NCBI RefSeq assembly: GCF_002906575.1
Contig: NZ_CP026309.1
Location: forward strand, 558,001 to 622,000
Length of the DNA: 64,000 bases
Reading direction: 5' to 3'
Origin: Salinigranum rubrum
Lineage (GTDB): Archaea; Halobacteriota; Halobacteria; Halobacteriales; Haloferacaceae
The notes beneath the pieces are model-generated. The model saw only the letters and a program-made list of their open reading frames with translations. It did no database searches and was not told the DNA's origin. The position numbers and the translations under genes were made by a program. This document shows positions 21,605 through 23,896 of this stretch, piece after piece (the first letter of the stretch is position 1; each line of letters starts with the position of its first letter).

Positions 21605-22798
21605 TCAGCGGATGACGTCGAGCCCGTTGTTCTTCTCGAGCTCGTCGCGGCCGCCGTCGGACTGCCAGCCGGCCTGCGCGTTCTGCCGGGCGTCGAACTG
21701 CTGGCCGTTCGAGTTCGACCCTCCGGCGGACTGCGCTTCGATGCTCTGGCGCGAGCGGTCGGCCTGTTTCTGCGTCGTCGGGCCGAGCACCTGCGCGGAC
21801 TGGACGCCGGTCATGATGGCCATGACCCGGACCTTGCCCTTGTACTCGTCCTGGATGCGCGCGCCCCAGATGACGTTGGCGCTCGCCTCCAGCCGTTCGG
21901 TGATGTTGTTCGCGATACCCTCGGCCTCCTTCAGCGTGAGGTCGGGGCCACCGGTGATGTGGACCAGACCACCGGATGCACCGCGGTAGTCGACATCGAG
22001 GAGGGGATGGTTCATCGCGTCGTTCACCACCTCCTGGGTCTTGTTCTTGTCCTGCGTCTCGCCGACGAGCATCACCGCGACGCCGCCCTGGTTCATGATG
22101 GTGGACATGTCCGCGTAGTCCAGGTTGATGAGCGAGGGCTGGGTGATGGTCTCGGAGATGCCCTTGACCGTCTCGGCGATGATCTGGTCCATCACCGAGA
22201 ACGCCTTGCCGATGGGTAGGTTCGGGACGTAATCGAGCAGGCGGTTGTTGTCGAGGACGATGATGGAGTCCGCCTCGTTGCGGAGTTTCTCCAGGCCTTC
22301 CTCGGCCTTCACGGTCCGGGCGCGCTCGACGTTGAACGGCGTCGACACCATGCCCACGACGATGGCGCCCTGTTCCTTGGCGATTTTCGAGACGACGGGT
22401 GCGGCACCGGTCCCGGTACCGCCGCCCATCCCGGCCGTCACGAACACGAGGTCCGCGTTGCCGAGTACCTCCTTGATGGTGCCCTGCGCCATCTCGGTGG
22501 CGCGCTCACCCATCGAGGGGTCGCCGCCGGCACCCAGTCCCTGCGTGAGCGACTTGCCCACGAGGATCTTGGTGTCGGCCTCGATCATCTTCAGGTGCTG
22601 CTTGTCGGTGTTGATGGCGACCGTCTCGGCGCCGTCGACGCCGATGTTGTACAGGCGGTTGATGGTGTTGTTACCGGCACCACCGCAGCCGACGATGACG
22701 ATTCGCGGGTCGCCGAACGTGTCGTCGCCGGTCGATTCGGCCTGCGCTTTCCGCTCGGCCTCGTCGCGCTGCATCGCTTCCTGGACGATGTCCTGCAT
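21605..22798 (-). CDS. ftsZ2: cell division GTPase FtsZ2
   Basis: A 397-residue tubulin-superfamily GTPase. The tubulin signature [12 protein letters not shown] lies near residue 117, preceded by [13 protein letters not shown] and followed by [16 protein letters not shown] and [11 protein letters not shown]; the T7 loop region [15 protein letters not shown] is present, so polymer-driven GTP hydrolysis should be intact. The C-terminal 50 residues are a polar Gln/Asn/Ser-rich tail. Haloarchaea have FtsZ1 and FtsZ2; gene neighbours (cdrS and cdrL upstream, ncsA downstream) identify this as FtsZ2, which acts in mid-cell constriction. Begins 2 bp after cdrS, so cotranscribed with it. Confidence 0.95.
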
Positions 22799-22800
22799 CG

Positions 22801-22980
22801 TTACACTCTCGCCCAGCTGCGCTTACCCGACGTCGACTCGCGGGTCTCGCTCTGTTCGTTGATCATTTCGCGAACGGCGGCCCGGATCGCCTCGCTCCGG
22901 TTCGGGAACTCGCCCGTCTCGACCATTCGCTCGACTTTCTCGATCTGCTCCTTCGGGATCCGTAGTGTCACACGCTCCAT
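22801..22980 (-). CDS. cdrS: ribbon-helix-helix cell-division regulator CdrS
   Basis: A 59-residue protein not much longer than its DNA-binding domain: [20 protein letters not shown] is the beta strand and first helix, and [16 protein letters not shown] the second helix, a textbook RHH fold. Its TAA is 2 bp before the ftsZ2 ATG, so it forms a cdrS-ftsZ2 operon. In Halobacterium and Haloferax, CdrS is reported as the short RHH regulator of ftsZ2 and division. The start codon is the ATG at 22980, about 150 bp below the only strong TATA stretch, implying a leader. Confidence 0.9.
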
Positions 22981-22997: not shown

Positions 22998-23157
22998 GTA
23001 AGACGCATCGGACGTGGTGTCCGTGTCACCGTCTTACACCGTTGAACCGACCGAAGGCGACACACCGTGCCCCCTTCCGTCTCGGCTGTAAGACGGCCGT
23101 CTTACGCGCTCGTATGGACTGGCCGCTATATTATAAATCTACCGGCGACCGTAAGAC
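22998..23157. promoter_or_regulatory. cluster of GTAAGAC repeats, candidate RHH operators
   Basis: Five copies of GTAAGAC or its complement lie between cdrL and cdrS: 22998-23004, 23031-23037 (complement), 23088-23094, 23099-23105 (complement) and 23151-23157. The middle two form the perfect 18-bp palindrome GTAAGACGGCCGTCTTAC (23088-23105). The shared core is close to (T/C)GTAAGACGG. A sixth copy lies inside cdrL (23429-23435, complement). Spacing around the promoter and the adjacent RHH genes suggest binding by CdrL and/or CdrS. Confidence 0.65.
23127..23138 (-). promoter_or_regulatory. TATA box of the cdrS-ftsZ2 operon
   Basis: The plus-strand TATATTATAAAT region gives a TATA element on the minus strand about 150 bp before cdrS. 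One GTAAGAC copy lies just upstream and the 18-bp palindrome overlaps where transcription would start. The core is near-symmetric, so its use on the other strand cannot be excluded. Confidence 0.5.
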
Positions 23158-23206
23158 AATATGTCCGAACGAACTCCAAACGGGCTCAAACGGACGAATT
23201 CGACGT

Positions 23207-23770
23207 TTACGTTCTGTCGAGAACGTCCGCTGCGGGCGTTCGTCGGCCACAACCGGGGCAGAACGCCCAGTCCGAGCGGAGTTCCTCGCCGCACTCGCCA
23301 CACGCGGGTTGGGTGATCAGCTCTCCGCAGTTCGGGCAGTAAACGTGGTCAGAGTCGACGTTTTCGCCACATTGCCCGCACGACGTTTCCGACGTTTGCA
23401 TCTCGTCTCCCGCGTATGCGCCGGCTGTCTTACGCGGTTCCGTTTCCTGTGTGTCGTCGGACGCTTCCGTCTCCCGGTGCTCCGCCGCGCCCTCGACCGT
23501 GATGTTGACGTTGACGTCCTGGGGGGCTGTACCGGCGGTTCTCCCGCGTAAACGCTCTGTGAGACGTTCGTCGATCAGCGCGTCGACCCGCGCGGCGAGC
23601 GCGTCGTCGATGCTGTCACCCTCCGACGACGACGTCGACGCGTCCGTCTCACGTCCCGCACCGTCGAGATACGCGCGGAGCGCATCGCGCATGACCTCGC
23701 TCTTCGAGGAGTCGAACTCCTCGAGGCGTCGGACGAGGTCGTCGTCAGCGCGGAACGTGATTTTGCTCAT
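23207..23770 (-). CDS. cdrL: RHH and double zinc-ribbon regulator CdrL
   Basis: A 187-residue regulator. Residues 1-45 (MSKITFRADDDLVRRLEEF...SEVMRDALRAYLDG) form a ribbon-helix-helix domain; the middle is acidic and disordered with predicted helix; the C-terminus holds two zinc ribbons (CGQCGENV...CPNCGE and CGECGEEL...CPGCGR). This matches CdrL, the long partner encoded upstream of cdrS-ftsZ2 in haloarchaea and reported to control that operon. Start at ATG 23770, from the RHH alignment; upstream codons of the open frame are implausible. Same strand as cdrS, 226 bp away across the repeat cluster. Confidence 0.88.
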   Translation of the reverse strand: MSKITFRADDDLVRRLEEFDSSKSEVMRDALRAYLDGAGRETDASTSSSEGDSIDDALAARVDALIDERLTERLRGRTAGTAPQDVNVNITVEGAAEHRETEASDDTQETEPRKTAGAYAGDEMQTSETSCGQCGENVDSDHVYCPNCGELITQPACGECGEELRSDWAFCPGCGRRTPAADVLDRT

Positions 23771-23896
23771 CGACTGTTCGATACGCGCCGAGGTACTTGA
23801 ACGTTTACACGGTGTCGGACAACTGTCTGTCGTCCCCAACCGGCATGGCCTGCCTGCGGAAACGCACTTACAGGGGGCGCTCCGCTACTCACGCGC

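Follow-up and report, generated by a model that had tools for sequence, protein, structure and literature searches.

The promoter region of the cdrS-ftsZ2 operon of the archaeon Salinigranum rubrum contains a conserved palindromic element made of two 7-bp units, through which CdrS most likely regulates the operon that encodes it, probably with the participation of the related protein CdrL. The control of division timing and level in archaea is largely an open question. A putative operator of the ftsZ2 operon that occurs once per genome, along with 11-bp arrays in more distant relatives and sites at ftsZ1 and cdrL, represents a specific DNA code amenable to mutation and footprinting.

The window, i.e. 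the whole stretch of DNA that was analysed, comprises 64,000 nt of S. rubrum (NZ_CP026309.1, assembly GCF_002906575.1, positions 558,001–622,000 of the forward strand); the coordinates below refer to it. The minus strand carries ftsZ2 (21605..22798, Tubulin/FtsZ in Pfam), cdrS (22801..22980, 59 aa, the proposed reader of the palindrome) and cdrL (23207..23770, 187 aa). CdrS and CdrL were both described by the initial annotation as ribbon-helix-helix (RHH) proteins, and Pfam indeed assigns RHH_1 to each of them; CdrL additionally contains CdrL_M and a double zinc ribbon.

The palindrome, GTAAGACGGCCGTCTTAC (23088..23105, minus strand), is located between cdrL and cdrS, upstream of the minus-strand cdrS-ftsZ2 genes. 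It is perfect over 18 bp and is formed by GTAAGAC units at 23088–23094 (+) and 23099–23105 (−), with the unit centers 11 bp apart. The TATA box of this promoter, TTTATAAT, occupies 23130..23137 (−), and if its start is taken to precede the start site by about 27 nt, cdrS transcription is predicted to begin near 23110. The palindrome then spans approximately +6 to +23, over or just after the predicted start; the initial annotation described it as overlapping the expected start. Single units are found in the cdrS leader (23031..23037, minus strand, −57 from the cdrS ATG), by the start codon (22998..23004, plus strand, −24 from it) and upstream of the TATA box (23151..23157, plus strand, position −177). 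One more unit lies within cdrL (23427..23433, minus strand), where it is read in CGT AAG ACA (Arg-Lys-Thr) with silent positions constrained across species. Thus the five upstream positions listed by the initial annotation are confirmed, and the copy inside cdrL, given there as starting at 23429, is shifted by 2 bp.

These six copies are the only ones in the window, and all of them fall within 436 bp (22998–23433). Genome-wide, GTAAGAC occurs 94 times in 4.97 Mb, and given this frequency the probability of at least five copies in 160 bp is 1.5e-15. The palindrome is the sole such 18-bp match in the genome, with the chance expectation of 0.0004 per genome.

Of 293 Halobacteriales genomes, 223 contain GTAAGAC-N4-GTCTTAC exactly once, and 43 further genomes have one copy of the form with the N5 or N6 spacer; the reversed pattern, a rough control that differs in composition, was nearly empty across these genomes. 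Matches of GTAAGAC were to be counted across haloarchaea according to the initial annotation, and the count yielded conservation rather than its absence. A conserved, defined operator code at the cdrS promoter, with protein binding putative, is therefore strongly supported by the genome comparison.

The palindrome is present in 126 of 138 distinct cdrS leaders, and in all 126 inspected loci it is located upstream of cdrS. The spacer between the units is 4 bp in 98 of these leaders, 5 bp in 19, 2 bp in seven, and 3 bp in two. The distance from the start of the TATA box to the start of the palindrome equals 32–34 bp in 102 of the 126 loci, and the C preceding the palindrome is invariant in the 98 loci with the 4-bp spacer. 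The −24 unit is retained both in loci where a profile search detects CdrL (116 of 121) and in loci without it (14 of 15).

Neither the N4 nor the N5/N6 form was found in 27 of the 293 genomes, 19 of which have a CdrS match. The corresponding 19 loci (L092–L110) mostly contain a palindrome with an N2 or N3 spacer or with one mismatch at the same place; only separate half-sites are seen in L092 and L104–L107. L104–L106 come from genomes of about 1 Mb that are 58–78% complete, with half-sites upstream of cdrS, no exact palindrome and no upstream CdrL. In family f14 (L094–L098, L100, L101, L110) most members have a 2-bp spacer, e.g. GTAAGAC-AC-GTCTTAC, and therefore the spacing of the units is not rigid.

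What is repeated is the 7-bp unit GT(C/A)NGAC. This unit is older than haloarchaea, and GTAAGAC is its haloarchaeal spelling at the cdrS promoter; the operator code suggested earlier retains its conserved sites, while its unit is refined in this way. As an outgroup we used 26 leaders of cdrS genes from archaea of the same phylum but of different families. Their last 150 bp contain 56 exact GTCNGAC units versus 0.455 expected from shuffles preserving base composition, the leaders being related, which inflates the excess to an unknown degree. Of 143 distances between paired units, 124 are exactly 11, 22, 33, 44 or 55 bp, and kinship of the leaders would not easily explain this exact 11-bp register. 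GTANGAC units also occur within the outgroup arrays, and one leader (L211) has four direct GTCAGAC copies.

Operators of the RHH proteins Arc, MetJ, NikR and CopG consist of short symmetric units that are bound by RHH dimers and follow one another at intervals of roughly a helical turn. The same arrangement of repeated short units, 11 bp apart, is seen in the palindrome and in the register of the outgroup arrays. The palindrome differs from these operators in that it occurs once per genome, lies over an archaeal TATA promoter, and has a spacer varying from 2 to 6 bp between haloarchaeal lineages.

Liao et al. (2021, PMC8406309) detected 18 CdrS sites in H. volcanii by ChIP-seq and reported a motif that is symmetric. 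As the published motif appears as a figure, we inferred its form, GTCNGAC-N4-GTCNGAC, from the target promoters. Among the listed targets it is found at ftsZ1, at hisB and its divergent gene, and at a PRC-barrel gene, the hisB and PRC-barrel loci being matched to the published ones by family and gene arrangement. The ftsZ1 promoters of Haloferax and relatives carry the motif with its center 22–23 nt before the TATA box (seven loci), which fits the published position of −50 if the start is assumed to lie about 27 nt past the start of the TATA box. The strict search at dacZ gave no match, and degenerate copies were found there only with two mismatches allowed. Exact matches number from 1 to 10 per genome, some of them within coding frames. 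A CdrS-type site was also observed between divergent DUF7093 and DUF6432 genes of unknown function in the genome of the window and in Haloferax (L248, L253, L257).

Like the CdrS sites in H. volcanii, the palindrome consists of paired 7-bp units with a 4-bp spacer and is associated with cell-division genes and the same, here putative, regulator. In contrast to them, it is spelled with GTAAGAC instead of GTCNGAC, the half-sites differing at position 3, and it is situated at the predicted transcription start and not upstream of the TATA box. Fifteen of the 18 published sites lie 41–110 nt upstream of the start, whereas the palindrome lies over or after the predicted start; two published sites likewise overlap a start site (PMC8406309). 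The literature search, aimed at CdrS, CdrL and GTAAGAC and covering few subscription papers, retrieved no report of a palindromic element at the cdrS promoter; it brought up the two mBio studies cited here along with articles and reviews in which CdrS is merely mentioned.

A CdrS-type site, GACAGAC-AGTT-GTCCGAC (23814..23831, minus strand), is present in the cdrL promoter of the window, with its center 21 bp upstream of the TATA-like sequence TTCAAGTA (23794..23801, minus strand). Among 114 regions upstream of cdrL, 58 contain such a pair with a best score of 10 or more out of 12, compared to 1.6% of shuffles that kept base composition only. Within cdrL, the RKT tripeptide is spelled CGTAAGAC in 58 of its 63 occurrences. 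The Arg of this tripeptide is encoded by CGT in 62 of 63 cases, whereas CGT makes up 16% of other Arg codons, a codon bias that suggests selection acting on DNA at this unit, with the counts inflated by shared ancestry.

We consider it reasonably probable that CdrS reads these sites as an operator through which the cdrS-ftsZ2 operon regulates itself, and that CdrL is a haloarchaeal addition. The identity of the bound protein, the number of dimers per site and the repressive effect at the transcription start are what we infer here. The GTC-N-GAC unit is nearly two-fold symmetric, and each GT(C/A)NGAC unit would be held by one CdrS RHH dimer, so that two units 11 bp apart would place two dimers on one face of DNA. 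At ftsZ1 and cdrL, and in a degenerate form at dacZ, the pair lies just upstream of the TATA box and BRE, a position from which CdrS presumably activates. When bound at the cdrS promoter itself, over or just past the transcription start, CdrS would block RNA polymerase, and the operon would therefore limit its own output. CdrL, a haloarchaeal paralogue, would act at the cdrS promoter too, probably on the same or neighboring units, and as cdrL is apparently a target of CdrS, a small feedback circuit could result. A tentative and rather doubtful extension is that haloarchaea respelled one letter of the old CdrS operator at this single promoter and thereby made a private, once-per-genome address for CdrS and the newer CdrL acting together, with the unit inside cdrL and the site in the cdrL promoter closing a self-limiting circuit of division timing.

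Published expression data bear on autoregulation in different ways. Deletion of cdrS in Hbt. salinarum decreases ftsZ2 mRNA 1.3–2.2-fold, which is the opposite of simple autorepression. Overexpression of cdrS changes FtsZ2 to about 0.7-fold (“very little difference”, according to the authors) and FtsZ1 to 1.7-fold. The monocistronic cdrS mRNA is reported to be about 250 nt long, somewhat shorter than about 310 nt expected from the start at the palindrome in Haloferax.

Alternatively, the palindrome could be read by CdrL: by replacing C with A in the outer half of every unit, haloarchaea would have created an operator reserved for CdrL and different from the CdrS motif. ChIP-seq in Hbt. salinarum showed CdrL at the region upstream of cdrS-ftsZ2, the same promoter region that carries the palindrome, and nowhere else (Darnell et al. 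2020, PMC7439475). That study gives no motif; the uniqueness of the region matches the single palindrome per genome. Moreover, none of the 18 CdrS sites in H. volcanii is at the cdrS promoter (Table 1 in PMC8406309). As its control, that experiment used input from the same strain, which had cdrS on a plasmid, and we conjecture that the plasmid copy in the input may have masked a CdrS peak lying some 110 bp away from the cdrS ORF. The presence of CdrL is associated with the −57 and upstream units (Fisher's test, p ~1e-6 and ~1e-5, respectively), but similar variants of the units are seen both with and without CdrL inside genera g49 and g81. The association is therefore confounded by clade, and the assignment of these units to CdrL was rejected. 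A search with all candidates scored revealed no CdrL in ten genomes that are 93–99% complete and represent seven genera from four families (G003, G012, G039, G026, G038, G101, G104, G191, G227, G286). All ten retain the palindrome upstream of cdrS, and hence CdrL is not its sole reader. CdrL-containing relatives from the same genus exist in g49, g81 and g60, which points to repeated loss of CdrL. According to Darnell et al. (2020, PMC7439475), CdrL does not occur outside Halobacteria, so the outgroup archaea, whose arrays contain GTANGAC units too, are reported to lack it. Given all this, a private CdrL operator seems unlikely to us. The initial annotation did not choose between the two RHH proteins as the one that binds. 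Although ChIP-seq places CdrL and not CdrS at the promoter, CdrS appears to be the better candidate for the conserved reader, because the palindrome survives without CdrL and the outgroup arrays at the same place are spelled like the CdrS motif.

Competition for the array or its joint occupancy by CdrS and CdrL, neither being sufficient alone, would agree with both proteins being RHH with similar first strands (ERVTLRI and SKITFRA), both being linked to the locus, and the cdrL promoter having a CdrS-type site; conservation of the palindrome even in genomes without CdrL makes this quite improbable. Any link of a protein to the exact palindrome sequence is putative, which leaves room for some other regulator. 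We regard such a regulator as very improbable, as CdrS accompanies the element in every inspected locus, and the architecture of the element recurs both in the outgroup leaders of cdrS and at published targets of CdrS. The repeats might instead act in RNA, given that the palindrome and the −57/−24 pair could form stems in the cdrS leader. However, L093, L103 and L109 change on one side with no compensation, the direct copies in L211 cannot pair with each other, and the −177 unit precedes the TATA box. The hairpin reading was rejected on the one-sided changes and direct repeats, and we give it hardly any credence. Reading by CdrS remains the preferred explanation.

In a complete chromosome record of Haloferacaceae archaeon XH8 there are two cdrL-cdrS loci (L012, L019), one close to each end, and cdrL has a shorter reading frame in the second locus (148 versus 178 aa); this could reflect duplication or assembly overlap. 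A third FtsZ-like match in G299 (L129) contains one internal stop codon.
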